Origin: Bacillus sp. J37
GTDB taxonomy: Bacteria > Bacillota > Bacilli > Bacillales > Bacillaceae
NCBI RefSeq assembly: GCF_000518865.1
Contig: NZ_JAEK01000017.1
Location: 27,221-91,114 of the forward strand
DNA: 63,894 bases
Direction: 5' to 3'
Every line of letters starts with the position of its first letter. The stretch's first letter is position 1. The translations under genes were made by a program, and so were the position numbers. The notes beneath the pieces were generated by a model, which ran no database searches, was not told the DNA's origin, and saw only the letters and a list, made by a program, of their open reading frames with translations. This document shows positions 10,757 through 59,421 of the stretch, one piece after another.

Positions 10757-11659
10757 TTAATAGGGATTCCATTTTATTAGCTGTGCTTCATGAAAACGTC
10801 TTTCAACTTCCTTCCAATTGACAACATTCCACCAATTATCAACATATTTCTTTCGATCGTTTTTATATTGAAGATAATAAGCATGTTCCCATACGTCGAG
10901 CGTTAGAAGCGGGATAACATCCCATTGACTCAGGTTTTGGTGTTTTTCTGCTTGAAGAATTTCTAATCGTTGTGCTCGAGGTGACCAAACCAAGATAGCC
11001 CAGCCAACTGCTTCCACGTTTTTAGCTGCTTCAGAAAAATGCTGTTTGAATTGTTCAAAGCTTCCAAACGATAGGTTGATTTCCCTCATCAGCATTCCCG
11101 AAGGCTTTCCGCCGCCATTAGGTGTCATGATTGACCAGAATATAGTGTGTAGGTAATGTCCGGCTCCATGGAATGCTGCTTCACGCTCCCAATGTTTAAT
11201 TAATTCGAAATTTCCGGTTTTACGTGCCTTTTGCATTTCTTTTTCGGCTTTATTTAATCCATCGACATAGCTTTGATGGTGTTTATCGTGATGCAAGCGC
11301 ATAATTTCCTGCTGAATATATGGTTCCAATGCATCATAGGCGTATGGCAACGGAGGGAGTGTATGACCTCCTATAGGCACAGTTTTCTTCTGATTTTGTA
11401 TTCGCTCATTCTCCTGACGCTCTTCAGAATCAAAATATGTTTCAAATTTGGTAAATAATTCGTCTGCACGTTGATAAACATCATTAGGGTCCAGGTCTGA
11501 TGTTTCATTAAGTTCATATTGCAGGTGTAAAAGTTCATTTTTCCATGATTCTAAACTCGTTATATCATGTTTGCTTCTTAAATCCTGAATTGAATCATCG
11601 TAACTCTTTAAAATATCATCACACCATTTTTTCATTGATGTCATGTATTGCTCTGACAT
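10757..11659 (-). CDS. sodF: Iron/manganese superoxide dismutase with N-terminal extension (SodF)
   Basis: Superoxide dismutase of the Fe/Mn family, 300 residues, about 100 longer than the classic enzyme. Residues 1-95 form a charged helical extension. The dismutase core starts near LPPLPYAYDALEPYI and carries the metal and active-site residues in RLHHDKHHQSYV, the HYLHTIFW helix and DVWEHAYYLQY. ATG 11659 follows AGGAGG; an upstream in-frame start lacks a site. It lies 89 bases after sqhC on the same strand and is probably co-transcribed. The long N-terminal form is also what B. subtilis SodF looks like. Metal preference cannot be decided from the sequence. Confidence 0.9.
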   Translation of the reverse strand: MSEQYMTSMKKWCDDILKSYDDSIQDLRSKHDITSLESWKNELLHLQYELNETSDLDPNDVYQRADELFTKFETYFDSEERQENERIQNQKKTVPIGGHTLPPLPYAYDALEPYIQQEIMRLHHDKHHQSYVDGLNKAEKEMQKARKTGNFELIKHWEREAAFHGAGHYLHTIFWSIMTPNGGGKPSGMLMREINLSFGSFEQFKQHFSEAAKNVEAVGWAILVWSPRAQRLEILQAEKHQNLSQWDVIPLLTLDVWEHAYYLQYKNDRKKYVDNWWNVVNWKEVERRFHEAQLIKWNPY

Positions 11660-11748
11660 GTAAAATCGCCTCCTAGACAGCAGTCCTAGACAATATATGC
11701 AAAAAAAGTGAAAGGGTTGATTTTTTTTCTTTGACATTACCATAGTGG

Positions 11749-13641
11749 TTAGGAATTTACAGTAGAATGAGTCATTATTTTTTTTCGATAATGTGCCAAG
11801 GCTAATAGGGGAAATATATCATTATAGCTATGATAATGAATATAAAATTGCCCTGGTAGCCCTATACCGGTGGGATAAGATAGCGCAGTTTGTGGAAAGG
11901 AAGAACGATCGAGTAAATGAGCAATTCCTTTTTTTACAGATTCCTTTACATATGCATTACTTTGTATCAAAGCATCTAGAGCCCAAGCAGTTTGAGATGG
12001 TGTACTATAAAGAAGTGGTGTATATTCTTTCTTGATACTGCTTATACAGGATTCTCCCCAACCTCCAGTATCAAGCTGAACGGATTCCAACCATTGAATC
12101 GCCTTTTGTATAACAGGGGAATTAGCAGATACGCCGACAGCTATCATTCCAGTAACTGCAGCCCATGTACCGTATATATAACAAACACCCCATCTTCCAT
12201 ACCAGGAGCCATTTCTTTCTTGATTGTTTTCCAACCATTTAATCGCAGCTTTAATGCTTGGATGTTGTTTAGATAATCCTGCATAAGTACCTAAAAACTC
12301 AAGTGTTCTGCCGGTTAAGTCGGGTGTTGATGGATCGATAGCAGCGTCCTTTGCATTCTCTAGAGGGATAAAAGTAAGTAACTCCAGGTCTGTGTTTTTT
12401 TCAAAAGCTCCCCAACCTCCGTCTGCATTTTGCATAGAAAGAAGATAGGTTACACCTCTGTACCAAGCATTCCGTTCTCTATCGTTTAATATAGCTGTAC
12501 GGGTTATAGCACGCAAAACGGCAGATGTATCATCATTATCAGGGATCATCGTGTTATTATGAGAAAACCCCCAACCTCCTGGTGCAACATTGGGATTATG
12601 AATCTTCCAATCTCCTTTTTTTGTATGTTGTTTAGAAAGTAGAAAGGAATTTGCTTGTTGAATGATCTTTTCTTGATTAGAGACTTTTGCTTCCTGTAAT
12701 GCATAACTTAGTAAAGCGGTATCCCATACTGTGGATGTTGAGTTTTCTATATGAATTCCATTACATGAAGTAGAAACTAATTGTTTTAAACCGTTTATAG
12801 CATTGACGATCGTAGGGGAGTTTTTACTATACCCAAGTGAAAGAAGGGCAAAGATCATAAAAAAAGTTGCGCTGGCATAACTGTATAAAGTACCATCTTC
12901 CTCTATTCTTTTTAACATATATCTCTCAGCACGCTGGTAGCCTAGACGATGCAGATATTCTGGTAGTGATAATAGTTTTTTCATGTCATTCATAAATAGT
13001 GAGCGAGAGCGATATTGATTTAGTAGGTGCTGTGGAGATGGTTGTCTGTAAAGGTGGCTTAATACAGGAGTATAGGCAGATTTTAATGTGAACTTTTTGT
13101 TTGCTGCCACCATCATAGGGATAAAGTGAATTCTAGCATAAGCACTAAATTGGTAGAAGTTAAATGGAAACGATGCTGGAATAAGCAGAAATGTCATAGG
13201 TACATAGAAGAGTGTTGGCCATGGGTAAAGTCCGTTGACAGCGAGCATCCATTTGGTCATAAAATGCGCATTGTTTAAACCACCTTTTTCTTTTATAAAT
13301 TGTTCAGCCTTTTTTAAAGCAGGATGATCCTGAGATACAAAGCCGGAGAACAATAATGCACAATAAGCTTGTATCGTTGCAGATAAATTACCATCCTCTT
13401 CGTCAGGGTAAGCTTTCCAGGTACCTTCTTTGGATTGGGTTAAAAGTAATCGTTCTGACAAATTCTTTATTAAAGTTTCCTCATTTTTGCTGTCCAATGC
13501 TCTGAGTGTAATAATCATAAACGCATCAGTCATTAATCCACCTTCGAAACAATATTTCCAAGACCCGTCACTATTTTGTGTATTTTTTAACTTGTCTACA
13601 AAAGAATAAATGGATTGATTAAGTTTGTTGTTTGTAAGCAT
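11749..13641 (-). CDS. sqhC: Squalene-hopene/sporulene cyclase
   Basis: Class II terpene cyclase of 630 residues. In B. subtilis SqhC cyclises tetraprenyl-beta-curcumene to sporulenes, lipids of the spore. The acid motif DXDD is present as DNDD at about residues 367-370, and several QW repeats are visible (for example QNADGGWGAFE, QERNGSWYGRWG, QLDTGGWGES). Membrane association is expected through a hydrophobic channel region near residues 140-170. The start ATG has GAGGTGAAG upstream. The gene heads a two-gene minus-strand operon with sodF. Squalene as alternative substrate cannot be excluded. Confidence 0.93.
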   Translation of the reverse strand: MLTNNKLNQSIYSFVDKLKNTQNSDGSWKYCFEGGLMTDAFMIITLRALDSKNEETLIKNLSERLLLTQSKEGTWKAYPDEEDGNLSATIQAYCALLFSGFVSQDHPALKKAEQFIKEKGGLNNAHFMTKWMLAVNGLYPWPTLFYVPMTFLLIPASFPFNFYQFSAYARIHFIPMMVAANKKFTLKSAYTPVLSHLYRQPSPQHLLNQYRSRSLFMNDMKKLLSLPEYLHRLGYQRAERYMLKRIEEDGTLYSYASATFFMIFALLSLGYSKNSPTIVNAINGLKQLVSTSCNGIHIENSTSTVWDTALLSYALQEAKVSNQEKIIQQANSFLLSKQHTKKGDWKIHNPNVAPGGWGFSHNNTMIPDNDDTSAVLRAITRTAILNDRERNAWYRGVTYLLSMQNADGGWGAFEKNTDLELLTFIPLENAKDAAIDPSTPDLTGRTLEFLGTYAGLSKQHPSIKAAIKWLENNQERNGSWYGRWGVCYIYGTWAAVTGMIAVGVSANSPVIQKAIQWLESVQLDTGGWGESCISSIKKEYTPLLYSTPSQTAWALDALIQSNAYVKESVKKGIAHLLDRSSFPQTALSYPTGIGLPGQFYIHYHSYNDIFPLLALAHYRKKIMTHSTVNS

Positions 13642-20776: not shown

Positions 20777-20868
20777 ATTTTTCCCTTTCTTTCCTATTCT
20801 GGCATAAAAAATTAACTTACACAGATGATAATAATAATTACCTTTGTATAGGGAGGCCTCCAAAATAT

Positions 20869-21504
20869 ATGGATTTGAACTTGATATGGAAAAGTGTTGT
20901 GATTGTCATAGGTGGTACGGTCCTGTTAAGGGTTGCAGGTCGAAAGTCCATTTCTCAGATGACTCTTTCACAAGTTGTCATTATGATAGGAATTGGATCT
21001 CTGCTTGTGCAGCCTTTAGTCGGAAAAAATGTATGGTCTACATTAATTGTAGGATTTACTTTGGTTGTTACATTAGTTATTGGTGAATATAGTCAGATAA
21101 AATCTGATAAGCTTGAAAAATTTATATCGGGAAAATCAAAAGTATTAATAGATAATGGGAAATTGCAAACTGATCAATTAAAAAAGTTGCGTTTATCTAT
21201 TGATTTGTTAGAAATGAAATTAAGGCAATCAAATGTTACTAATATGAATGATGTAAAATATGCAACCTTGGAACCAAATGGTCAAGTTGGATTTGAATTA
21301 AAGGAACAAAAAAAACCTGCAACAAAAGAAGACATCACCTTCATCTTAGAAGAAATCCAACAACTAAAACAAATGATGGGCATCCACCCAATTAGAACAA
21401 CTACAAATACACAACAAGAACTTCCATCTTCATCGGCAACGACATTATTTACTGAGGTTGTGAAAAATAAAAATAATCCTCAACCACCCCGAGAATTACA
21501 GTAA
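20869..21504 (+). CDS. DUF421-family membrane protein (YetF/YrbG type)
   Basis: A 211-residue protein with three N-terminal membrane segments (LIWKSVVIVIGGTVLLRVAG, ISQMTLSQVVIMIGIGSLLV, VWSTLIVGFTLVVTLVIG) and a cytoplasmic domain containing FISGKSKVLIDNGKL and LRLSIDLLEMKLRQSN, typical of DUF421 proteins. The region after about residue 150 is charged and low in complexity. ATG 20869 follows GGGAGG. Several Bacillus members are linked to spore germination or membrane homeostasis, but the function is not defined. Confidence 0.85.
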   Translation: MDLNLIWKSVVIVIGGTVLLRVAGRKSISQMTLSQVVIMIGIGSLLVQPLVGKNVWSTLIVGFTLVVTLVIGEYSQIKSDKLEKFISGKSKVLIDNGKLQTDQLKKLRLSIDLLEMKLRQSNVTNMNDVKYATLEPNGQVGFELKEQKKPATKEDITFILEEIQQLKQMMGIHPIRTTTNTQQELPSSSATTLFTEVVKNKNNPQPPRELQ

Positions 21505-21541
21505 TATCACAAAGTACTGGCTATATTTTAACACGAAAAAT

Positions 21542-21571
21542 CTACCAATCAGAAAAGTTGGTAGGTTTTTT
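21542..21571 (+). terminator. Terminator of the DUF421 gene
   Basis: CTACCAA (21542-21548) pairs with TTGGTAG (21558-21564), followed by seven T. Confidence 0.88.
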
Positions 21572-21817
21572 GGTTTAATCTCCAAATAATGTAATATCTG
21601 CAAAAGTTCAAATGACCAAAAATAAGCACGATTAGACTACTTACTTAATAAAATCAAAAAACACAATTTGTATACGCTTCCATTTTGGTCGCTATCATCA
21701 AATATCTTCATTTCCATTTTCGTCTATCACTTTACGATGACCGCCACATAAGTTGTATATGTACTCAGAAAAGAGTCAACTAGCAAATAGTATACGAACC
21801 AAAGGAGGTGGTAGGTT
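21572..21817 (+). promoter_or_regulatory. Upstream region of the GriH/GriI-type operon
   Basis: About 246 non-coding bases lie before the operon. The only structure I see is a separated dyad, GACCAAAA (21614-21621) and TTTTGGTC (21683-21690). No clear sigma-A promoter stands out. GGAGGTGG at 21802-21809 is the ribosome binding site of the first gene. Confidence 0.4.
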
Positions 21818-22384
21818 TTGGCGTATAGTAAAGGAGATTGGAAAAAAGATTTTCAAGAAGCAATCCAACTTCATCAACAAGCCATAGATGGTGATAAGCA
21901 AGCAGCGAAGAAAGCCTATGAAATACTAAAAAAAGTGAAATTAAAAACTGTTAATCATGCACTTATTGATGCCTATTTTGGTAGTTCTTCCGCTCTAATT
22001 GCAAGAGACCATCCAGATTTAATAGAAAAAATGAATCTTGCAAAGAGAGGATTAAAAGTTCTTGATCAAGCTGTCAAAGCAGAACCTAATAATAGTGAAA
22101 TTAGAGTGTTAAGAGGTAATGTGGCATTTCGCCTTCCGGAAACGTATTTTAAAAGAACGAAAACAGCAATTGAGGATTTTCATTTCCTAATTAAGGAATA
22201 TGAAAATAATAGGAACAACATTTCAAAGGAGCAATACAGTGAGTTTCTATTAAATTTAGGTAGTGCCTATAAAAACTTAGGGGACAATCAAAATGCTGAA
22301 AATATATGGGGGAAACTCCTTAAGATGAACAATAGTAAATATAAAAAATTAATTGAAAAAGCAAGGAAGAACGGAGGTGAATAG
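21818..22384 (+). CDS. Single-domain TPR-like protein, first gene of the operon
   Basis: A 188-residue soluble helical protein that I do not recognise as a named family. It is one copy of a domain of about 160 residues that recurs three times in the next gene. The domain opens with a helix (FQEAIQLHQQAIDGDKQAAK), continues with YFGSSSALIARDHPDLIEKM, then the strongest motif LRGNVAFRLPETYFKR with AIEDF, and ends with a TPR-like pair (LNLGSAYKNLGDNQNAENIW). TTG 21818 has GGAGGTGG eight bases upstream. The next gene starts two bases after the stop. A scaffold or interaction role is suggested by the TPR character. No catalytic motif is visible. Confidence 0.75.
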   Translation: MAYSKGDWKKDFQEAIQLHQQAIDGDKQAAKKAYEILKKVKLKTVNHALIDAYFGSSSALIARDHPDLIEKMNLAKRGLKVLDQAVKAEPNNSEIRVLRGNVAFRLPETYFKRTKTAIEDFHFLIKEYENNRNNISKEQYSEFLLNLGSAYKNLGDNQNAENIWGKLLKMNNSKYKKLIEKARKNGGE

Positions 22385-22386
22385 GA

Positions 22387-24486
22387 TTGCTTTATAATAA
22401 AAAAAATGCAGAACTATTAAGAAAACTAGCAAGAGGAAACGGTTTTTTGCCAAATTCTAATAAACAGTTTTTGAACAATTTACCTATCCCAAATAGTATT
22501 TTGGAAATGTCTAATAAAACAACAGAAAGTATAATTAATCACTTGTTGGAAGCTAGAAAAACAGAAAAAAATCTTTCCTCTAAACAAAGCAAAGAGAAAA
22601 AAAATAAAGTTGAACAAAAACAAAAATTAAAAAACACATATGATGACAGGGATAAACAGTCAACATATGTACCGAATCTTCCTAAAATTAGGAATGTAAA
22701 AGGAAAAACAACCCCTAAAAACGATAATGAATCTTCAAAGAGAATAAAAGAACCTGTAATAAAAAAAGCTGAGACCATCAAAAACATTGCAGAATCAGAA
22801 GCAAATCTATCACCATTAGAAGAAGCAATAAGCAACCATGATGATGGAATAAAAGGGAATAAGCTTTCTGTAAAAAAGGCATATACCGCCTTAAAAGACT
22901 TACACGAGAAACACCCAAACGACCTTAAAATTAAATCCTACTTCGGAAGTGCAACAACGCTACTAGCAAGAGATGCAAGCAGTGTTACGGATAAAATGAA
23001 ATATGCATTAGAGGGTTTAAAGCAATTAGATCAAGTAGTGGAAAAGAATCCGGACTTTATTACTGCAAGAATTTTAAGAGGAAACGTATCCTATCGGTTA
23101 CCGGAATTATATTTTCAACGTACAGCGACAGCAATCGAGGATTTTAGGTATTTAATAGAAGTTTTTGAATCTAACAACTCAATTTTATCAGAGAGAGAGT
23201 ACGTTGAGATTTTGAAAAATTTAGTTGGGGCTTTTAAACGTCTTAATCAACATGAAAATGCGCAAAACTATCAAGAAAAATTAAAAGCATTCAAACAAAC
23301 TGATATCACTAAAACCAATACCGAAACTCAAACTCAAATGATGAGTAGTGTAAATGAGACAACTGGAGAAGGATTAACAGAGGAAGCAAAAAACATTTAT
23401 TTAAATGCTCTTAATGGTGGGCAAAAAGAAGTGAAAGAGGCACTATCATTTTTTGAAGTATTTGTGTTAACGAATACCGATCCAGAAGTAGAAATGACCT
23501 ATATTGATCTTCAATCAATGATAGGAAGGGATTCTATTAACACCTATGAAATGTTTGGCTCTGCTATAAAGTCTATGAAAGCTATGGATACTCTCGTAAA
23601 TGAACACCCGACTTTAAGTGAACTTCGATTAATTCGAGCAAGACATAGTTTACGTTTACCGGAGATGTTTTTTAGAAGAGCTGCTATTGCAGTTAGCGAT
23701 ATAGAAATGCTATTAAAAGATACAACCTTTATTGATGGAGCCGAGCTGGCAGTTCACCACCAGTTGTTATTTGATTTAGGATACGCTTATGAAAAGCTGG
23801 AGATGCTGGAAAATGCTCAGGAAATCTGGAATAAATTATTGAAAATGCAACCAAGTGAGGAACTGAAAAATAGAATACAAGAAAAAATAGATGTTCATTC
23901 ATATAAAGAAATTGACATCCGTATCTTCTCGGTTTATTCCCAAGAGAAAATGTACGGCAAAGCAAAAGAAATTCATTTAATGGGAGCGAAAGGGAGTCGA
24001 ATAGCTGCAAAGCAAAGTTTGGAAGTGTGGGAACTAGCGAGAAAGAGATTTCCAAATTGTGATATTGCGAACACCTATTATGCTGCCTCTGTAGCTTTAA
24101 TGGGTAAATATGCTAGTGATCCCCAGGAAATGTTTGGAGAAACGATAAAGGCATTAAAGATGTTAAAAACATCTATTAAATCCAATAATCCTGAATTGAA
24201 GTATTTGCGTGGATGCATCTATAACAATTTACCTGAAGGTTTCTTCCATTCAAGTGACAAAGCAGTAAGGGACTTTAAAGCTGTTAAATTAGCATATGAA
24301 CAAAACAGTGAGAACCCCCCGATCACACAAGAACAATATGTAAAACTGCTTTATGATTTAGGTCATCTCTACAAAAAAACTAGTTTTGTAGATAAAGCGT
24401 TGAAAACATGGAAAACTCTTATAAATGAAGCACCACAATCACATTATGCTCAGCAAGTAGCAAGCCAGGTAGGTGAAGAAATATGA
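22387..24486 (+). CDS. Three-domain TPR-like repeat protein
   Basis: A 699-residue soluble protein. Residues 1-140 form a Lys/Asn-rich, probably disordered N-terminus. Three copies of the domain seen in the preceding gene follow, at about 141-305, 330-500 and 515-690. The core motif degrades from copy to copy: LRGNVSYRLPELYFQR, IRARHSLRLPEMFFRR, LRGCIYNNLPEGFFHS. Each copy ends in a TPR-like helix pair (LGYAYEKLEMLENAQEIW in copy 2). It begins at TTG 22387 after a GAGGTGAA site and overlaps the ligase gene by ATGA. The paired repeat proteins are the least explained part of the operon; a scaffold for the biosynthetic enzymes is a reasonable guess only. Confidence 0.75.
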   Translation: MLYNKKNAELLRKLARGNGFLPNSNKQFLNNLPIPNSILEMSNKTTESIINHLLEARKTEKNLSSKQSKEKKNKVEQKQKLKNTYDDRDKQSTYVPNLPKIRNVKGKTTPKNDNESSKRIKEPVIKKAETIKNIAESEANLSPLEEAISNHDDGIKGNKLSVKKAYTALKDLHEKHPNDLKIKSYFGSATTLLARDASSVTDKMKYALEGLKQLDQVVEKNPDFITARILRGNVSYRLPELYFQRTATAIEDFRYLIEVFESNNSILSEREYVEILKNLVGAFKRLNQHENAQNYQEKLKAFKQTDITKTNTETQTQMMSSVNETTGEGLTEEAKNIYLNALNGGQKEVKEALSFFEVFVLTNTDPEVEMTYIDLQSMIGRDSINTYEMFGSAIKSMKAMDTLVNEHPTLSELRLIRARHSLRLPEMFFRRAAIAVSDIEMLLKDTTFIDGAELAVHHQLLFDLGYAYEKLEMLENAQEIWNKLLKMQPSEELKNRIQEKIDVHSYKEIDIRIFSVYSQEKMYGKAKEIHLMGAKGSRIAAKQSLEVWELARKRFPNCDIANTYYAASVALMGKYASDPQEMFGETIKALKMLKTSIKSNNPELKYLRGCIYNNLPEGFFHSSDKAVRDFKAVKLAYEQNSENPPITQEQYVKLLYDLGHLYKKTSFVDKALKTWKTLINEAPQSHYAQQVASQVGEEI

Positions 24487-25817
24487 GTTCTTTATTTGAA
24501 AAAAAGTTAAAGAAGATACGAATGCCTTTAACGATCAAACGCTTCTTTAATGGATCGGTTCATCCAGATAAGATGTCTCAACAGCAGATTGAGACCTATC
24601 ATGTTGAATCATTAAAACAAATTGTCAAAAAAGCATATGAAAAAAATGAGTTTTACCGTCAGAAATTAGATGAAGCAAACGTGAAACCAGGTAATATAAA
24701 AAAACTAAGTGATTTAAGTAAGCTACCATTTTTAACAAAAGATGAATTAAGAGGAAAACCTTATATTTTATTAACTTGTGATAAAAAAGATATCGCTCTT
24801 GTGCAAGTTTCAACAGGCACAACAGGTGGAGAAGAAATCTATATGATGTACACCTGGAATGATTACTATTTACACGATCTTGCTCCCAGATATCCGGAAT
24901 TATTTGAGGTCAACCCTGGAGATGTTTGTTTAAATGCACTGCCATATGAAATGAGTGCAGCAGGTTTAGCTTTTCATAAAACGTTCATGGAAGGCTGTGA
25001 AGCAACGGTTATCCCTGCTGGTAAAGGTGGAGCGTATTCAACACCGAAGAAGACGCTAAAAATGATAAAAGATCTAAAGCCAAATGTCGTTATAACAACT
25101 CCATCGTGGGCTATGTTACTTGCTGAAGAAGCAGCTGAGCAGGACTTTGATTTGCAAAGTTTGCAATTAAAAAAACTTTGGATTACGGGTGAAGGATGTT
25201 CTCCTGCATTTCGTCAAAGGTTAGAAAATCTTTGGGGAGTTACCGCTAACTTCTTTTATGGAAGTCTAGAATGCGGAGTTCTTGGGATTGAATGTGATCA
25301 CCATGATGGCTACCACCTTGCCCAAGCACATGCAATTGTCGAGATTGTTGATCCAAAAACAGGTGAACCACTCGATGAAGGAGAAATTGGCGAGATTGTT
25401 GTAACTAGTGCTCTTCGTTATGATACGCCAATTCTTCGTTTCCGTACTGGCGATCTTGGCTATATTGAGTCGGAAAGCTGTCCGTGTGGAGTTACAATGC
25501 CAAAGTTCTATCTTCGCGGAAGGGTAGTAGATCAAATTAAGTACAACGGAACATCTCTTTCCCCATTTTATCTTGAGGAGTTTTTAATGCGCGAGCCTGA
25601 AATAGGAAATTGGTTTGAATTTGTATTAACTCGTGATGGTGATAATGAGACCATTCATGTGCGCTGTGAACTCGCTGATGGAGTTGAACCATCAGAACAT
25701 TTAGCTGATTCTTTAGCTAGTAAACTTGAATTTGCTTCAGGCATTCCATTTCAATTGGAATTTGTTAATAAGCTTCCACGGCCACAAGGAAAAACAGTTC
25801 GTGTTGTTTATGAATAG
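24483..25817 (+). CDS. Phenylacetate-CoA ligase-like adenylate-forming enzyme (ligase 1)
   Basis: ANL-superfamily enzyme of 444 residues, in the PaaK-like branch that activates aromatic acids with ATP. The P-loop is STGTTGG (from residue 110), the A5-type motif is FFYGSLECGVLG and the A7-type motif is RFRTGDLG. CDHHDGYH together with CPCG could bind a structural zinc, as in several PaaK-like proteins. The C-terminal small domain carries the LRGRVVDQIKYNG hinge. The start overlaps the stop of the repeat-protein gene (ATGA), so translation is coupled. With the downstream GriH/GriI pair the likely substrate is an aminohydroxybenzoate, which is inference. Confidence 0.85.
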   Translation: MSSLFEKKLKKIRMPLTIKRFFNGSVHPDKMSQQQIETYHVESLKQIVKKAYEKNEFYRQKLDEANVKPGNIKKLSDLSKLPFLTKDELRGKPYILLTCDKKDIALVQVSTGTTGGEEIYMMYTWNDYYLHDLAPRYPELFEVNPGDVCLNALPYEMSAAGLAFHKTFMEGCEATVIPAGKGGAYSTPKKTLKMIKDLKPNVVITTPSWAMLLAEEAAEQDFDLQSLQLKKLWITGEGCSPAFRQRLENLWGVTANFFYGSLECGVLGIECDHHDGYHLAQAHAIVEIVDPKTGEPLDEGEIGEIVVTSALRYDTPILRFRTGDLGYIESESCPCGVTMPKFYLRGRVVDQIKYNGTSLSPFYLEEFLMREPEIGNWFEFVLTRDGDNETIHVRCELADGVEPSEHLADSLASKLEFASGIPFQLEFVNKLPRPQGKTVRVVYE

Positions 25818-25828
25818 GGGGTGAAAAG

Positions 25829-26584
25829 ATGATTATTGATGCCCATACACATCTTTCAAATACCGAATACGGAAACACGGAAACGTATTTGAAATTGATG
25901 AAAGAGGCAGGGATAGATGAGGCAGTAGCTGTACCAGGTGCAATGCTGGATGTCCGAAAAATGACAGAATATATTACAGGACGTTCAAAACCGGATAATC
26001 CGGTTCCCGACAACCTATATGTTGAAAAAGCATCCAAAGCAAATCAACAAATTCATGGATTTATTTGTCTTAACCCGCATGATAAAGATGTTCTTTCTCA
26101 ATTGGAAAGAGGAAAAAAACAAGGGTTTAAAGGCTTAAAGTTATCACCGTTATCACATCAATTTTCCTTTGCATCTAAGGGAGTAACAGGTTTAGCTGAA
26201 TTATGTGGAAATTATGGGTTTCCAGTTTATTCTCACGTCGTTTACAGTCCTGGAGCTTCGACAGCAAAATTTGTTCAATTAGCAAAACAATTTCCAAAAA
26301 CCAATTTTATTATCGGACATATGGGATTTGGTCCTGCTGATCAAGAAGCACTTGAAGCTGCAGCAGTTATGCAGAACTTTTATTTAGAAACGTCAACAGG
26401 AAACTATCTTCACATTCAAGAATCAGTAAAAAAAGTCGGCTCATCAAAGGTGATTTTTGGATCAGAATACCCGCTGTCACACCCTGGAATTGAACTCGAG
26501 AAAGTTTTAAAGCTCAATATCAGTGACCGGGAGCGGGAAGAAATTTTAAGCCAAAATATAAAACATTTATTACAAATGAAATAG
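25829..26584 (+). CDS. Amidohydrolase-superfamily enzyme (amidohydrolase 2 type)
   Basis: Metal-dependent TIM-barrel protein of 251 residues. The first strand gives the HxH motif (IDAHTHLS). Later strand ends provide KGLKLSPL, YSHVV, IIGHMG, and FGSEYP, where many relatives have Asp instead of Glu. Amidohydrolase-2 members hydrolyse or decarboxylate aromatic and ring substrates. In the nataxazole and closoxazole pathways a member of this superfamily closes the benzoxazole ring. Lying between two ligases in an operon with aromatic precursor genes, a cyclase or hydrolase role on the ligase product is plausible. GGGGGTG precedes the start. Confidence 0.85.
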   Translation: MIIDAHTHLSNTEYGNTETYLKLMKEAGIDEAVAVPGAMLDVRKMTEYITGRSKPDNPVPDNLYVEKASKANQQIHGFICLNPHDKDVLSQLERGKKQGFKGLKLSPLSHQFSFASKGVTGLAELCGNYGFPVYSHVVYSPGASTAKFVQLAKQFPKTNFIIGHMGFGPADQEALEAAAVMQNFYLETSTGNYLHIQESVKKVGSSKVIFGSEYPLSHPGIELEKVLKLNISDREREEILSQNIKHLLQMK

Positions 26585-26598
26585 AGGTGTGTTTGTAG

Positions 26599-27852
26599 AT
26601 GAACACACAGAAGAAAATCAATGCTATAAATGAAATCCTAACTTATGCCAAAACATCTCCATATTACTCTAAACGCATTCAAATCCCACTACTGCATTCC
26701 CTTAATGACCTAAAAACAATCCCGTTAACGACTAAAGCTGATCTTAGAGAACAATCACCTTTTGGTTTACTGCCTGATTCTATTATGTCGTTATCTCAAT
26801 ACCATGAATCATCCGGAACAACAGGAACACCTGTTTCGGTATGGTATTCAGAGACTGATCTTGACGAAATAACTAGAGGTATTGCAAGGTGTGGAGTCAA
26901 TTTTAACCGCCATGACCGAGTTCTCATCCGCTTTCCATATGCACTATCAACAATATCTCATTTTATGCATCGGTCTGTTCAAATGCAGAGTGGATGTGTG
27001 ATTCCAGCAGATAGTCGTACAACTGTTACACCTATGCCAAAAGTGATTGATCTAATGAAAAGATTAAATATAACAGTCCTTGCGTGTATTTCATTACAAG
27101 CTATTATGCTTGCGGAAATGGCAGAAATGCAAGGTCTTGAACCTAAAAAAGATTTTCCTTTTTTAAGAGCAATATGTACAGCAGGTGAACCGTTAACACC
27201 TTATCGCAGGAAGTTAATTGAAGATATCTGGGGAGTGCCAGTGTTTGATAACTATGGTATGACAGAGGTCGGCACAGCAATGGTTGATTGTACTCAACAG
27301 CAATTGCACATGTTTGAAGATTATTTTCATGTTGAGATTTTAAAAGATGATTTTGAAACTGTTGTAAACCCTGGTGAATGTGGAAATCTTGTCATTACAA
27401 CTCTCCGTAAAAGAGCTACACCAATGATTCGGTATGCAACAGGAGATATTGTTCAGGAGATAAACAACTCTTGTTCATGTGGTAATGGTCGTTCATTTGT
27501 CATTAGAGGCAGAAAAGAAAATCTGATAACGATTGAGTCAGTTTCATTTGACCTGTACGAATTAGAGAAGATAATTGCTCCATTACCTGCTAGACGATTT
27601 TGGTCTGCGGGAAAAATTACCAATACACTCTATCTATTTATTGAAAAGGAATCTAGTACTGATACGATTCATGTGAATGATATTGAAAAGTTGAAGAAAA
27701 TGTACGGGGTTAACATTTCTATTATTCTTTTAGATAAAGGAACCTTGTACGACAGAACAGATGAAGTTTCCTTCGGGATGAAAGGGAAGCCCCGTTACTT
27801 TTTAACTGACCAAGAAACGGCAAATTTATTAAACAAAATTAAAACTAAGTAG
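26599..27852 (+). CDS. Phenylacetate-CoA ligase-like adenylate-forming enzyme (ligase 2)
   Basis: Second PaaK-like ANL enzyme, 417 residues and clearly diverged from ligase 1. The P-loop is SSGTTGTP (about residue 71), followed by DNYGMTEVGTA and MIRYATGDI. CSCGNG lies in the same place as the CPCG of ligase 1. The small domain starts at IRGRKENLI. Two different ligases suggest two acids, or one acid activated for two fates. It starts 14 bases after the amidohydrolase with AGAGGTG upstream. Confidence 0.85.
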   Translation: MNTQKKINAINEILTYAKTSPYYSKRIQIPLLHSLNDLKTIPLTTKADLREQSPFGLLPDSIMSLSQYHESSGTTGTPVSVWYSETDLDEITRGIARCGVNFNRHDRVLIRFPYALSTISHFMHRSVQMQSGCVIPADSRTTVTPMPKVIDLMKRLNITVLACISLQAIMLAEMAEMQGLEPKKDFPFLRAICTAGEPLTPYRRKLIEDIWGVPVFDNYGMTEVGTAMVDCTQQQLHMFEDYFHVEILKDDFETVVNPGECGNLVITTLRKRATPMIRYATGDIVQEINNSCSCGNGRSFVIRGRKENLITIESVSFDLYELEKIIAPLPARRFWSAGKITNTLYLFIEKESSTDTIHVNDIEKLKKMYGVNISIILLDKGTLYDRTDEVSFGMKGKPRYFLTDQETANLLNKIKTK

Positions 27853-27872
27853 TTTGGAAGGAGTAAGGATAG

Positions 27873-28979
27873 ATGCAACAAAAAGCTAGGCAAGTGTGGT
27901 ATGACGGAAGAGGAGTATCAGTAGAAAATATGGATGTGTGGGAATTAATCAACCATTCACCAATTGATAAAGTGTTGGTATCTCTACAACAACGTCAAGA
28001 AGGTTATTTTCCTCAAAAAATGACGTTTATGACTGAAGTCGAAAACAGTGAACAATTAGAGGAAGTCCCTGCTGGAGATGTCATTTTTTCTAATAGGGAA
28101 GAGGTGTTAACAGAAGCGAAAAAACAAGGGTTTCAAACATGTATCTTTTATTCTGTTGATAATAGAGAAATGTTAGAACGTTGCTCAAGAGAAGCAAGTG
28201 AGTATGATTTTGCGGCTGTTGACTTTGATTTACCGACAAATATTCCACTAGAGTTAATTATTGCCCGTTTAGAGGAAAGCAATACTGTCCTTTTAAGAGC
28301 AGTAAATACAGCAATCGATACAGAGATCGCTTATGGAACACTTGAAAAAGGTAGTGATGGCGTATTATTTGCTACATCAAATGTTAGTGAAGTGAAAAGA
28401 TTAACTGAATTTATGTCAAGACAAAGTTTACCAAACCTTGAATTGCACCCAATGCTCGTAACCGAGGTGATGCATGCAGGGATGGGTGTCCGTGCTTGTA
28501 TTGATACCACTGGTATTATGACCCAGGATGAAGGGATGATCATTGGATCAACTTCTGGTGGTGGAGTATTCGTTTGTTCGGAAACTCACTACCTTCCTTA
28601 TATGAATTTAAGACCATTTCGTGTCAACGCTGGTGCTGTTCACTCATATGTATGGCAGCCTGAGGATGCAGCTGAATATTTAAGTGATTTAAAAGCTGGA
28701 GATAAGGTGTTGTGTGTGAATACAAAAGGTGAAACTCGTGTGTTAACAGTTGGGCGTATAAAAACAGAGGTTCGTCCAATGTTGCTCATCAAAGGTAAAG
28801 TAGGAGAGCGTGAATTAAACGTAATCGTACAAGACGACTGGCACATTCGTATTATGAGTGCAGACGGTAAACCGCGTAATGCTTCTACGATACAACCGGG
28901 TGATGAATTATTATCATATATTTGTGAACCAGGCAGACACGTTGGTGTAAAAGTAAGTGAAACAATTATCGAAAGATAG
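27873..28979 (+). CDS. DHQ synthase II-family enzyme (GriH-like 3-amino-4-hydroxybenzoate synthase)
   Basis: A 368-residue member of the family shared by archaeal 3-dehydroquinate synthase II and GriH, which makes 3-amino-4-hydroxybenzoate from the aldolase product. Recognisable stretches are the N-terminal VWYDGRGVSVENMDVWE, the glycine-rich MIIGSTSGGGVFVCSETHY and FRVNAGAVHSYVW, and the C-terminal beta domain (VRPMLLIKG, ending EPGRHVGVKV). The enzyme's two family roles, archaeal shikimate pathway and secondary metabolism, cannot be separated by motif. Operon partners and a bacterial host favour the second. GGAAGGAG precedes the start and the aldolase follows after 18 bases. Confidence 0.85.
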   Translation: MQQKARQVWYDGRGVSVENMDVWELINHSPIDKVLVSLQQRQEGYFPQKMTFMTEVENSEQLEEVPAGDVIFSNREEVLTEAKKQGFQTCIFYSVDNREMLERCSREASEYDFAAVDFDLPTNIPLELIIARLEESNTVLLRAVNTAIDTEIAYGTLEKGSDGVLFATSNVSEVKRLTEFMSRQSLPNLELHPMLVTEVMHAGMGVRACIDTTGIMTQDEGMIIGSTSGGGVFVCSETHYLPYMNLRPFRVNAGAVHSYVWQPEDAAEYLSDLKAGDKVLCVNTKGETRVLTVGRIKTEVRPMLLIKGKVGERELNVIVQDDWHIRIMSADGKPRNASTIQPGDELLSYICEPGRHVGVKVSETIIER

Positions 28980-28997
28980 AACATTGGAGGAATTAGA

Positions 28998-29761
28998 ATG
29001 TCCGGAAAAGAAATACGTCTAAAGAAGCTTTACCATCATTCCGACAAACTACTCATTGTCCCGATGGACCATGGAATTACAATTGGTCCTGTTACAGGGT
29101 TAACGGATATTAACAAAACAGTTGAAGCTGTATTCGATGGTGGTGCAGATGCTGTTGTCGTTCATAAAGGGCTTGTTCGCTATTTAACAGATGCAATAGG
29201 TTCAAACAAAGGTGAACTTATCATTCATTTATCAGCATCAACAGCTTTAGCTCCAGAATCTCAATCCATGCGAAAAGAACTGGTTTCTTCAGTAGAGCAT
29301 TCGATTCGATTGGGTGCAACTGCTATTTCTACACATGTAAACCTCGGATCACCTTTTGAAGCCGAACAAATAAAGGATGTTGGTTTAATTGCTGAAGAAT
29401 GTGATAAGTGGGGCTTGCCATTATTAGCTATGATGTATGTTCGTGACGGTTCCAGAGTGCATGAATTTGACCCGGACCGTATCCGACATGCTGCACGTGT
29501 AGCCGAGGAGCTTGGAGCAGATGTTGTGAAAGTCAATTATAGTGGTTCACCTGAGACATTCAAACAAGTCGTTTCCGGTGTGAAATCCCTGTGTTAATCG
29601 CTGGTGGAGAAAGACTATCATCAAACGATGATTTAATCACGATGATTGACGATGCGATAAATGCTGGTGCAAATGGAATCTCAATAGGTCGAAACATTTT
29701 CCAAGATGATGATCCAAAGAAATTATGTAAAAATATCCGATCTATTTTAAATCAATCATGA
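28998..29761 (+). pseudogene. GriI-like aldolase (ADTH/3-amino-4-hydroxybenzoate precursor synthase), frameshifted
   Basis: Class I Schiff-base aldolase of the DeoC/FbaB (DhnA) group. GriI joins aspartate semialdehyde to a C3 unit (DHAP) and archaeal homologues make the ADTH precursor. The first frame (28998-29597, 199 residues) has VPMDHGIT and the catalytic lysine K178 in ADVVKVNYSG, then stops. Reading shifts by -1 at 29583-29586 into 58 more residues (IPVLIAGGERLSSN and GISIGRNIFQ, the phosphate-binding end) stopping at 29761. One A restored after GTGAAA gives an intact protein of about 254 residues. This is either a recent mutation or a sequence error. The AAATCC context is not a typical slippery site. 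Confidence 0.88.
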
Positions 29762-29769
29762 GGTGAAAT

Positions 29770-29961
29770 ATGGAGAAACAACAATTCACAAATGAAGCAA
29801 TTGGTAACTTATCGAAGAAAATCGCAGAGTTAAAGAAACAAGGAGCATCCGGTGACCAAATTCAAGGTGCTGTGTTTGAAATGCTACGTGAACTTGGAAT
29901 TAATATCCCTTTAGATAAACTGCCGGAGAACTTTAGAGCAGTTAAAGATGAAAATGAATAG
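29770..29961 (+). CDS. Small unknown protein closing the operon
   Basis: A 63-residue protein starting MEKQQFTNEAIGNLSKKIAE, mostly amphipathic helix with two Gln/Lys-rich stretches. It has no DSL motif of a carrier protein and no membrane segment. ATG 29770 is nine bases after the aldolase stop, with GAGGTGAA in front. The operon terminator follows. It could be a regulator or partner of the pathway enzymes; nothing more can be said. Confidence 0.65.
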   Translation: MEKQQFTNEAIGNLSKKIAELKKQGASGDQIQGAVFEMLRELGINIPLDKLPENFRAVKDENE

Positions 29962-29991
29962 CAAAGAATAGCTAAAAAATGATTAAGTAGG

Positions 29992-30022
29992 AGAGATTGG
30001 ACCATAGTCTGATCTCTTTTTT
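29992..30022 (+). terminator. Terminator of the GriH/GriI-type operon
   Basis: AGAGAT (29992-29997) pairs with ATCTCT (30012-30017) across a 14-base loop, followed by six T. Confidence 0.72.
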
Positions 30023-30086
30023 GTATGGTTTCAAGAAAAACAGCCAAACTAACATGGGAAAAAACTAAAAATTGGAGGAAAACTTC

Positions 30087-30710
30087 ATGTTAAAAAAGCT
30101 TTTTTTAGCAACATTTGTCTTTTTTATGGTGATGCCTTCAGTATCACATGGGCAAATTAAAACCTTTAAAGAACCGCCATTTGAGTTTTACAAAGTATCA
30201 AAAGGAGATACTTTCTGGTACATAGCCCAACGATATGGGTTAGATTATCGAAAATTAATGGAATTAAACCCTAACGTTGAACCAAGAAATATGCATGTAG
30301 GAGAGGTTATCCGTCTTAAACCTTCAGCTAAAAGTGTTAGTAGCTTCCAAGAGCAAGTTGTTCAATTAGTAAATCAAGAGCGTGCAAAAGCCGGATTAAG
30401 ACCTTTAACACATCGCGCGGATGTAAAAAATGTAGCTCAGAAAAAAGCAGAGGACATGATTAATTCAAATTACTTTTCACACACAAGTCCAAATTACGGA
30501 TCACCTTTTAATATGCTAAAAACATTTGGAATTAGCTACTCGTATGCAGGAGAAAATATTGCAAAAGGGCAAAAAACTCCACAAGAAGTGATGAATGCAT
30601 GGATGAATTCATCAGGTCATCGAGCAAACATCTTAAAACCTGAATTCGATGCAATCGGAGTAGGGTTCTATCATGGGGCATGGGTGCAAATGTTTATTAA
30701 GGGTAGATAA
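30087..30710 (+). CDS. LysM plus CAP/SCP-domain extracytoplasmic protein (YkwD-like)
   Basis: A 207-residue exported protein with a signal peptide (LFLATFVFFMVMPSVSHG, cleaved near residue 24) and one LysM module (about 34-77, YKVSKGDTFWYIAQRYG). A C-terminal CAP/SCP domain holds VVQLVNQERAKAGLRPL, the HTSPN loop and NSSGHRANILKPEFDAIGVG. The domain pair fits the YkwD/spore-associated group of CAP proteins. ATG 30087 follows TTGGAGGAAAA. It lies 125 bases after the operon terminator region and has its own terminator, so it is not part of the GriH/GriI operon. Confidence 0.82.
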   Translation: MLKKLFLATFVFFMVMPSVSHGQIKTFKEPPFEFYKVSKGDTFWYIAQRYGLDYRKLMELNPNVEPRNMHVGEVIRLKPSAKSVSSFQEQVVQLVNQERAKAGLRPLTHRADVKNVAQKKAEDMINSNYFSHTSPNYGSPFNMLKTFGISYSYAGENIAKGQKTPQEVMNAWMNSSGHRANILKPEFDAIGVGFYHGAWVQMFIKGR

Positions 30711-30721
30711 GTATAAGTAAG

Positions 30722-30761
30722 AGCAAAATCCTCTTCTATTATAAGAAAAGAGGATTTTGTC
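30722..30761 (+). terminator. Terminator of the CAP-domain gene
   Basis: AAAATCCTCTT (30725-30735) pairs with AAGAGGATTTT (30748-30758) around a short AT-rich loop. Confidence 0.85.
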
Positions 30762-30782
30762 ATTTTGTGAGGGTTTGTGTCT

Positions 30783-30877
30783 AATCGAAAATAAAATAAC
30801 AGAATCGAAGATAAAAACTTTAAAATCGTTGATAAAAATTCAGAATCGAAGATAAATGTCAAAAATCGAAGATAAAA
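30783..30877. repeat. Five imperfect repeats at about 20-bp period
   Basis: Five copies of the motif (A)AATCGAAGATAAA lie with their ATCG cores at 30784, 30804, 30825, 30845 and 30865, so the spacing is 20, 21, 20 and 20 bases. Copies 2, 4 and 5 share AATCGAAGATAAA; copies 1 and 3 vary by one or two bases. The array is intergenic, between the CAP-domain gene terminator and a convergent small gene. Confidence 0.85.
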
Positions 30878-31228: not shown

Positions 31229-31444
31229 TTAAAATCTACCAGTTCCGCCGCTCATTTGTTGCTGAGCCATAGATACTAAGCGTTTTGTAATTTCGCCACC
31301 AACAGAACCATTTGCACGAGATGTTGTTTCTCCACCAAGATTTACACCGAACTCACTTGCGATTTCGTATTTCATTTGGTCGATCGCTTGAGAAGCACCA
31401 GGTACTACTAATTGATTAGAATTGTTGTTACTGTTGCTTGCCAT
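31229..31444 (-). CDS. Alpha/beta-type small acid-soluble spore protein
   Basis: A 71-residue DNA-binding spore protein. The family signature [19 protein letters not shown] and [12 protein letters not shown] is complete, including the GPR protease cleavage region EIASEFG. These proteins saturate forespore DNA and protect it from damage, and are degraded at germination. Start 31444 ([12 protein letters not shown]) has an AAGGAGATGG site upstream. Which ssp paralogue it is cannot be decided. Confidence 0.95.
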
Positions 31445-58992: not shown

Positions 58993-59421
58993 ATGGCCGT
59001 TGTAAAAGCGACTGAAACAGATATTGCCTTATTAGCTAGGCTGCTTCGTGCAGAAGCCGAAGGAGAAGGGATTCAAGGTATGCTTTTAGTCGGAAATGTA
59101 GGAATAAATCGGATTCGTTCCAACTGTTCGGATTTTAAGGGATTACGAACAATTCCGAATATGATTTTTCAACCACATGCTTTTGAAGCCACAACCAAAG
59201 GTTATTTTTTTCAAAGGGCCAGGGAAAGTGAAAAAAGACTTGCTCGTAGAGTCGTAAACGGTGATAGGTTTTGGCCGGCGAAATTTAGCCTATGGTATTT
59301 TCGTCCTCAGGGTGATTGTCCTCCACAATGGTACAATCAGCCGCTTGTGGGGAGATTCAAACTTCATTGTTTTTATGAGCCTACTGCAGAAGAATGTGAA
59401 AATATCTATAATACATTTTGA
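58993..59421 (+). CDS. cwlJ: Spore cortex-lytic enzyme CwlJ
   Basis: A 142-residue cell wall hydrolase of the SleB/CwlJ catalytic domain, the same length as B. subtilis CwlJ. It acts in the spore coat on the cortex during germination, needing GerQ and responding to calcium dipicolinate. The conserved LARLLRAEAEGEGIQGMLLVG-type first helix, VGINRI, FQPHAFEA and the C-terminal WPAKFSLWYF are present. The catalytic Glu is in the AEAEGE segment. No signal peptide is seen, as is normal for CwlJ. GGAGGTG precedes the ATG. No gerQ gene lies near it in this window. Confidence 0.93.
   Translation: MAVVKATETDIALLARLLRAEAEGEGIQGMLLVGNVGINRIRSNCSDFKGLRTIPNMIFQPHAFEATTKGYFFQRARESEKRLARRVVNGDRFWPAKFSLWYFRPQGDCPPQWYNQPLVGRFKLHCFYEPTAEECENIYNTF

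Follow-up and report, generated by a model that had tools for sequence, protein, structure and literature searches.

A candidate closoxazole-type operon with tetratricopeptide repeat partners in a Metabacillus genome

Introduction

What compound is made by an operon that places two PaaK-like ligases, an amidohydrolase and a GriH/GriI-type enzyme pair behind two genes for repeat proteins? The operon in question lies at positions 21818-29961 of a 63.9 kb stretch of DNA, referred to here as the window, which belongs to one contig (NZ_JAEK01000017.1) of the draft genome of Bacillus sp. J37 (GCF_000518865.1; 5.3 Mb in 96 contigs). A first-pass annotation, made from the sequence alone, had proposed that these genes yield a compound derived from 3-amino-4-hydroxybenzoate (3,4-AHBA). 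The precursor part of that proposal stands; what it missed is the class of compound, which is predictable because the gene set and gene order match those of the closoxazole cluster of Pyxidicoccus fallax, where two ligases and an amidohydrolase give a benzoxazole (PMC12118335). Also missed were the conservation of the repeat proteins, the split versions of the operon and the hints of a link to sporulation. In addition, the genus label Bacillus should read Metabacillus, GriH of the window being 98% identical to GriH of Metabacillus halosaccharovorans and M. niabensis. We consider it probable that the operon encodes a closoxazole-type pathway with tetratricopeptide repeat (TPR) helper proteins, its product possibly being made by the sporulating mother cell.

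Gene content, gene order and predicted pathway

Open reading frame (ORF) calls place eight genes on the plus strand in the series tprA, tprB, L1, AH, L2, griH, griI and small, separated by 2-20 bases or overlapping by 4 bases and closed by an intrinsic terminator (Table 1), just as the first-pass annotation had it. Its gene types are also borne out by the Pfam domains of the eight proteins, which are TPR (mostly below cut-off), AMP-binding in both PaaK-like ligases, Amidohydro_2, DHQS and DeoC, with a small protein at the end, and the domain scan agrees with it that no exporter is present among these genes.

The clxA-E closoxazole cluster of Clostridium cavendishii, reportedly described by Horch et al. 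in 2022, encodes the same five enzyme types as the window. Closoxazoles are benzoxazoles made from 3,4-AHBA, and their clusters encode two AMP ligases, a condensing amidohydrolase, and GriH-type and GriI-type enzymes; the arrangement of clxA-E differs from that of pfxABCDE in P. fallax, where genes for a ClxC-like ligase (pfxA), an amidohydrolase (pfxB) and a ClxA-like ligase (pfxC) are followed by a ClxB-like (pfxD) and a ClxE-like gene (pfxE) (PMC12118335). This order, ligase-amidohydrolase-ligase-GriH-type-GriI-type, is also that of the window, the likeness to pfxABCDE being drawn from gene types and order, and that to ClxB-E from gene types. Relative to pfxABCDE, the window has two additional TPR genes at the start and a gene for a small protein at the end, its GriI is interrupted, and its host is a member of the Bacillota, in which the presence of this amidohydrolase family was already known because ClxD homologues have been reported there (PMC12118335).

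The arrangement recurs widely, as seen in 60 mapped loci, some of which are the same place mapped twice and some of which are ligase-only or short-DHQS loci. Conservation of the order, a check proposed with the first-pass annotation, is evident in 20 distinct loci besides the window that keep TPR-L1-AH-L2-griH-griI, from Metabacillus, Bacillus suaedae, Rossellomorea, Brevibacillus, Aquisalibacillus and Filobacillus to Peptococcaceae and metagenome-assembled genomes, and chance is thus not a reasonable explanation. An extra stretch separates L1 and AH in L027 and L037, L2 is in two overlapping pieces in L136, and rearranged blocks occur elsewhere, such as griH-griI-TPR-L1-AH-L2 in Heliophilum (L032). 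The exceptions are loci in which the contig ends just before or within griH (L033, L035, L126, L129 and L131), one without AH and with its TPR gene about 8 kb away (L031), and one that holds just TPR, griH and griI up to the contig edge (L036). Relatives of the small protein are confined, among the mapped loci, to those of the Metabacillus type and of Bacillus suaedae. The extra stretch of L027 (6277-7677), from Peptococcaceae BICA1-7, is an amidase gene, and a comparable gap separates L1 from AH in L037.

A different kind of cluster, without this TPR family, is seen at L121, L138, L139 and L140. Genes for an ABC-transporter-like ATPase and permease adjoin L121, L138 and L140 (from reading N-termini, with no profile run), and L121 and L140 encode a different TPR protein of 173 aa. 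These last two are larger clusters that hold three PaaK-like ligases, AH, GriH and GriI with the 173-aa protein, together with FabD/FabG/thioesterase-like and ABC-transporter-like genes, again judged from N-termini.

The observed gene content, order, conserved residues and co-occurrence suggest a route of which every chemical step is a prediction for this organism. GriI and GriH would convert aspartate semialdehyde and a C3 phosphate to 3,4-AHBA, after which L2 would adenylate one 3,4-AHBA and couple it to a second, giving an unstable ester (or amide) that the zinc amidohydrolase AH would close to a benzoxazole. L1 would then extend the molecule at its carboxylate with a third 3,4-AHBA unit or a different aryl acid, yielding closoxazole A or a close relative; in vitro, PfxA, PfxB and PfxC together convert 3,4-AHBA to closoxazole A (PMC12118335). 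TprA and TprB would assist the PaaK-like ligases, a scaffold being their most likely role.

Table 1. Positions of the operon genes, associated signals and neighbouring genes in the window
Feature	Position	Strand	Description
Promoter-like block	21722-21755	+	GTCTATCAC-N16-CATANNNTG, upstream of tprA, sigma-K-like
tprA	21818-22384	+	188-aa TPR protein, one ~190-aa repeat block
tprB	22387-24486	+	699 aa; three tprA-type blocks at 144-299, 332-491 and 514-679
L1	24483-25817	+	PaaK-like AMP ligase; occupies the PfxA (ClxC-like) position
AH	25829-26584	+	Amidohydro_2 protein; occupies the PfxB position (ClxD-like condensing amidohydrolase)
L2	26599-27852	+	PaaK-like AMP ligase; occupies the PfxC position; nearest solved relative ClxA (9s3l)
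griH	27873-28979	+	GriH-type 3,4-AHBA synthase, DHQ synthase II family
griI piece 1	28998-29597	+	GriI-type aldolase, 199 aa, bears invariant K178
griI piece 2	29594-29761	+	Rest of GriI-type aldolase, different reading frame
small	29770-29961	+	63-aa protein; no match in Pfam or NCBIfam
Intrinsic terminator	29989-30020	+	14-bp hairpin, then T run
YkwD family gene	30072		Spore-family neighbour of the operon
Alpha/beta-type small acid-soluble spore protein gene	31232-31444	-	81.8 bits, near the operon
Cell wall hydrolase gene	58993-59418	+	Related to spore cortex-lytic enzyme; further from the operon
Squalene-hopene cyclase family gene	11752-13641	-	Adjoins the superoxide dismutase gene
Fe/Mn superoxide dismutase gene	10760-11743	-

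Ligase and amidohydrolase residues

L2 has 9s3l as its best match among solved structures (214.5 bits, E 2e-62), with AjiA1 (205 bits) and NatL2 (198 bits) as close runners-up. From its numbering we identify 9s3l as ClxA, because Y218, Y219, T222 and N226 as given for that enzyme (PMC12519233) occupy the same numbers in the 9s3l chain. The structural zinc ligands of NatL2, Cys248, His254, Cys308 and Cys310 (PMC7204872), map to C231, H237, C292 and C294 of L2, all of which are invariant in 28/28 L2-type rows, as is the C-terminal lysine K397, the likely counterpart of ClxA K393. L1 is PaaK-like, has the C-terminal domain and sits at the PfxA position.

AH, a protein of 251 residues, scores 97 bits against Amidohydro_2. 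Five of its residues, H6, H8, H136, H164 and Glu213, are invariant in 18/18 aligned rows (of 36 AH proteins found) and are likely metal ligands, which by motif order would match His75, His77, His253, His290 and Asp345 of NatAM. The nataxazole enzymes NatL2 and NatAM resemble the window in pairing a PaaK-like ligase that bears a structural zinc with an amidohydrolase that closes the ring. NatAM, however, is larger than AH, with ~494 residues traced and an extra beta-roll domain, and the nataxazole precursor is 3-hydroxyanthranilate, unlike the 3,4-AHBA expected for the window (PMC7204872).

Precursor supply

GriH scores 334.5 bits against PF01959 (DHQS; cut-off 22.2), an assignment at family level, and GriI scores 142 bits against DeoC; these family matches support the first-pass annotation in its view of a GriI/GriH-type pair that would supply 3,4-AHBA. 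The GriI product retains K178, which is kept in 36/36 GriI sequences, yet its coding sequence lies in two reading frames here, a split that the earlier wording of a "repaired" GriI had implied and that we confirm. The ORF is whole (250-296 aa) in 35/35 other griI loci examined, L028 and Filobacillus being counted as whole because other searches placed both halves in one frame. This strain may therefore be without its own precursor, or the break may be a sequencing error, two cases that are indistinguishable because the genome is a draft.

GriH and GriI might instead form an alternative entry to the shikimate pathway, with the other genes being unrelated. GriH does score against models of dehydroquinate (DHQ) synthase II. 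The first-pass annotation had raised the possibility that the two genes replace a missing aroB; an aroB homologue (ORF of 379 aa) is nevertheless present in the genome, and GriH/GriI therefore need not take its place. All of the DHQ synthase II model cut-offs are missed, and griH and griI accompany ligases, AH or TPR genes in most mapped loci. A search of 14 control genomes with PF01959 gave matches in three archaea only. We have rejected shikimate replacement, given the aroB homologue, and regard this alternative entry as hardly credible.

Grixazone is another system with GriH and GriI, and its pathway includes a tyrosinase-like oxidase that accompanies the two enzymes. Together with bagremycin and ferroverdin (GriH-GriI and BagC-BagB types), it has 3,4-AHBA supply genes in common with the window, and BagC_FevH and BagB_FevI are among the related NCBIfam models, albeit with scores below their cut-offs. 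The operon might thus encode a grixazone-like pigment or an iron-binding compound, formed by activation of 3,4-AHBA followed by oxidation, with a phenoxazinone as one possible product. This is very unlikely in our view, as none of the eight genes encodes a tyrosinase or phenol oxidase (oxidases were sought among these genes and not across the rest of the sequence of this strain) and the gene order fits that of pfx.

Several observations weigh against a closoxazole-type pathway. To our knowledge, no product is known from any TPR-type cluster. L2, GriH and GriI fall below the equivalog and exception cut-offs of every NCBIfam model that they match, and the best solved matches of L1, which is assigned to PfxA/ClxC from its position, are ordinary PaaK enzymes. 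As set out above, griI is interrupted in this genome, and a full-length griI-griH pair in another genome (G172, L148) has none of the other parts within 20 kb. AH carries Glu213 where NatAM carries Asp345 and the solved relative 3cjp also has an aspartate, and glutamate at this position is possibly a hallmark of the AH subfamily. The pocket of L2 is not identical to that of ClxA, since Y218 has an asparagine as its counterpart and N226 is replaced by a threonine that lies in the acid pocket as in NatL2; N226 of ClxA contacts the para-hydroxyl (PMC12519233), and NatL2, which shares the threonine, takes a different acid (PMC7204872). Finally, the available text of PMC12118335 contains neither "TPR" nor "tetratricopeptide", and the known pathway thus works in vitro without such proteins.

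TPR proteins and their co-occurrence with GriH

Comparison of tprA with tprB shows that the latter consists of three copies of the tprA block. The AlphaFold2 model of TprA (pLDDT 92) is entirely helical, and Foldseek gives the magnetosome TPR protein MamA as its best match (E 1.0e-3, TM 0.58, 16% identity), the general TPR fold alone being in common; the match of TprA to the MamA profile is weak (19.8 bits, cut-off 200). For TprA, the model supports the TPR class alone.

The distribution of GriH-type genes was examined in three samples. DHQS occurs in 15/21 genomes of the genus (that of the window and 20 further ones) and in 38/397 genomes of the order, in six of which it is full-length, and 19/398 genomes of the phylum sample score above cut-off, with one more giving a weaker match. 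The match in the other 32 of the 38 order genomes is to the C-terminal half of DHQ synthase II (ORFs of about 180-263 aa, L067-L090 among them); other operon genes are absent from nine stretches fetched around such short-DHQS loci, and in L149 the short ORF lies beside an apparent trp operon.

To follow the TPR family we used profile A1 (E <= 1e-15). Its 15 source sequences were TPR proteins picked from the neighbourhood of griH, and the count is circular to the extent that 6 of the 18 favourable phylum genomes and all 4 favourable order genomes supplied rows to it. The family is found in 32/398 phylum genomes, comprising 18/19 of those with above-cut-off DHQS against 14/379 of the others (Fisher p 1.3e-21, uncorrected for kinship), and the association persists when the six row-donor genomes are dropped (12/13 versus 14/379, p 5e-15). 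Two of the 14 TPR genomes without DHQS (G498 and G842) carry TPR-L1-AH-L2 in genomes that gave no DHQS match, one (G652) stops at a contig edge, and in the remaining 11, other TPR proteins with unrelated neighbours match more weakly (E 1e-21 to 1e-44). In the order sample the family occurs in 6/397 genomes, with 4/6 of the full-length DHQS genomes positive against 2/391 of the others (p 2e-7), the four being those that fed A1. Two further observations concern this family: tprB is split into two ORFs of 365 and 169 aa in G003 (L144), and seven genus genomes have a second TPR locus (L161-L167), in which paired genes of the same family stand without ligases, near an Orn/Lys/Arg decarboxylase gene (Pfam, L161).

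Sister modules and relocated ligases

Members of the TPR family also stand beside an L1-L2-like pair (35-40% identity) in five genomes (G014, G065, G068, G079 and G137), in a sister module for which griH, griI and AH were not found in the 18-19 kb fetched. This module holds a gene for 3-deoxy-D-arabino-heptulosonate 7-phosphate (DAHP) synthase (in L169, 289 bits to PF00793 and 464 bits in NCBIfam) and a 198-aa gene that bears a weak likeness to chorismate pyruvate-lyase (19.7 bits to PF01947, which has a cut-off of 22; PDB 2nwi, E 0.003). NCBIfam gives no match for the 198-aa gene, nor does Pfam for its relatives in L158, L198 and L138; such chorismate-lyase-like genes occur in 8/21 genus genomes and were not found in that of the window. 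L169 encodes a further PaaK-like ligase fused to TPR repeats at its end; L168 and L171 encode it at equal length, and it did not appear in the stretch fetched for L170. In L197 a separate TPR piece matches the end of the fused ligase, and the second ligase is closest to it. The sister module would appear to be a version of the same ligase chemistry fed by 4-hydroxybenzoate, which ClxA and PfxC link as esters (PMC12118335, PMC12519233).

These modules bear on another possible product, a 3,4-AHBA oligomer of a different kind: the TPR proteins might organise, for instance, a linear chain of amides or esters, which the amidohydrolase would trim or rearrange with no benzoxazole being formed. Plain hydroxybenzoate has no amine for benzoxazole closure, and the sister module, with its DAHP synthase and chorismate-lyase-like gene, combines TPR proteins and PaaK-like ligases without AH. 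Moreover, the products of ClxA and PfxC include linear dimers and trimers, and longer oligomers arise with a ClxA variant (PMC12118335, PMC12519233). On the other hand, AH remains beside griH in most TPR-type clusters mapped, including four from which both ligases have moved, and its counterparts PfxB and ClxD cyclise (PMC12118335), so that we regard a linear oligomer as unlikely.

The four clusters with moved ligases belong to four Metabacillus species (G002, G006, G008 and G020), in which L1 and L2 lie together outside the operon, ~125-145 kb away. Loss of the pathway in these ligase-free loci was considered and rejected, given that the pair survives elsewhere in 4/4 of the same genomes. Three genes precede the relocated ligases: one is chorismate-lyase-like, and the other two are small. 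In G002 and G020, the genomes scanned, one of the small genes encodes a Coat_F protein (60 and 58 bits, cut-off 25.7), and the proteins of G006 and G008 look alike.

Promoter block and link to sporulation

A promoter-like block, GTCTATCAC-N16-CATANNNTG, precedes tprA in 15/15 Metabacillus and Bacillus suaedae regions, and a pattern-free alignment of 10 tprA upstream regions leaves GTCTATCAC and CATAA invariant. The blocks of the 15 regions were anchored on AC and CATANNNT[AG], so that 100% conservation of those letters is by construction; outside them, in 13 blocks (L146 being left out as too short, and the window and L019 being identical), conservation is 100% for the final G and for the 7 bases that precede AC, and 63% for the spacer. 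The Bacillus subtilis sigma-K consensus is KCACM and GCATANNNTA (PMC3416734). TCAC and CATANNNT occur in 15/15 upstream regions, with G and not A as the last base, and the -35 core thus fits this consensus while the -10 element fits except for its last base and the G before it. The strict pattern AC-N15..17-CATANNNTA also starts 65-104 bases before the L1 ORF in 4/4 of the genomes with split operons, and it occurs before tprA in Brevibacillus and before DUF4915-TPR genes in 3/3 scanned (L169, L171 and L197).

Other results speak against the sigma-K assignment. The consensus score of 9-10/12 is not by itself significant, at least 10 being reached by 6% and at least 9 by 44% of shuffles, and the best-scoring site of the window and of L018 is a different one, at -53. 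Strict matches occur in 23/283 upstream regions of fetched loci and relaxed ones (T[AG]) in 37/283, the tested loci included, while L027 and L028 give relaxed matches only. Matches are absent from the 200 bases upstream of tprA in Rossellomorea, Aquisalibacillus and Filobacillus, and likewise upstream of L1 in five DAHP-type loci and of the TPR gene in L170; L032, L130, L132, L122 (two starts), L123, L128 and a 62-base stretch of L037 gave none either. Taken together, these data are suggestive of a conserved sigma-K-like promoter block before tprA and the relocated ligases.

Other signals were also sought. A sigma-A promoter was rejected, as a scan of 21400-30200 gave 23 sites against 28.8 expected from shuffles; no sigma-E pattern was found in the regions scanned, and no RNA family matched across 20800-30800. 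The terminator hairpin (-15.6 kcal/mol, z -4.45) is more stable than its shuffles, 0/200 of which were equally stable, and is not listed by a simple terminator scan. Among neighbouring genes (Table 1), the cyclase and superoxide dismutase pair presumably resembles the sporulenol synthase neighbourhood of B. subtilis.

Both the promoter block and the coat genes that adjoin the relocated ligases suggest that this operon, which encodes no exporter, might be expressed in the mother cell late in sporulation. Taken with Coat_F, the absence of an exporter and the nearby genes of spore families, the block makes such expression plausible, the case for and against it being about evenly balanced.

Implications

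The downstream chemistry proposed here is largely known; what is new is the link to the TPR family, the sister clusters, the relocated ligases and the sigma-K-like block. No title or abstract opening that we found reports this operon, a Metabacillus benzoxazole or the TPR partners. More tentatively, the TPR-PaaK modules of Bacillota might form a family that strings together aromatic acids late in the mother cell, with TPR proteins as the scaffold, to give a spore component, a generalisation about which we are doubtful. The acids would be 3,4-AHBA, supplied by GriI/GriH, or else, probably, 4-hydroxybenzoate made by DAHP synthase and the chorismate-lyase-like enzyme, and the product a benzoxazole or aryl ester, such as a coat pigment or ultraviolet screen, for which no exporter would be needed because the mother cell lyses.

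A closoxazole-type assignment turns a vaguely aromatic operon into one with named chemistry and known masses, which for the dimer, the benzoxazole and closoxazole A are m/z 289.08, 271.07 and 406.10 (PMC12118335). Clusters of this kind are frequent within one spore-forming genus. The TPR partners, which go unmentioned in the available text of PMC12118335, may reveal how PaaK-like ligases are organised, and the sporulation link, if true, would give a natural product a role in the spore.

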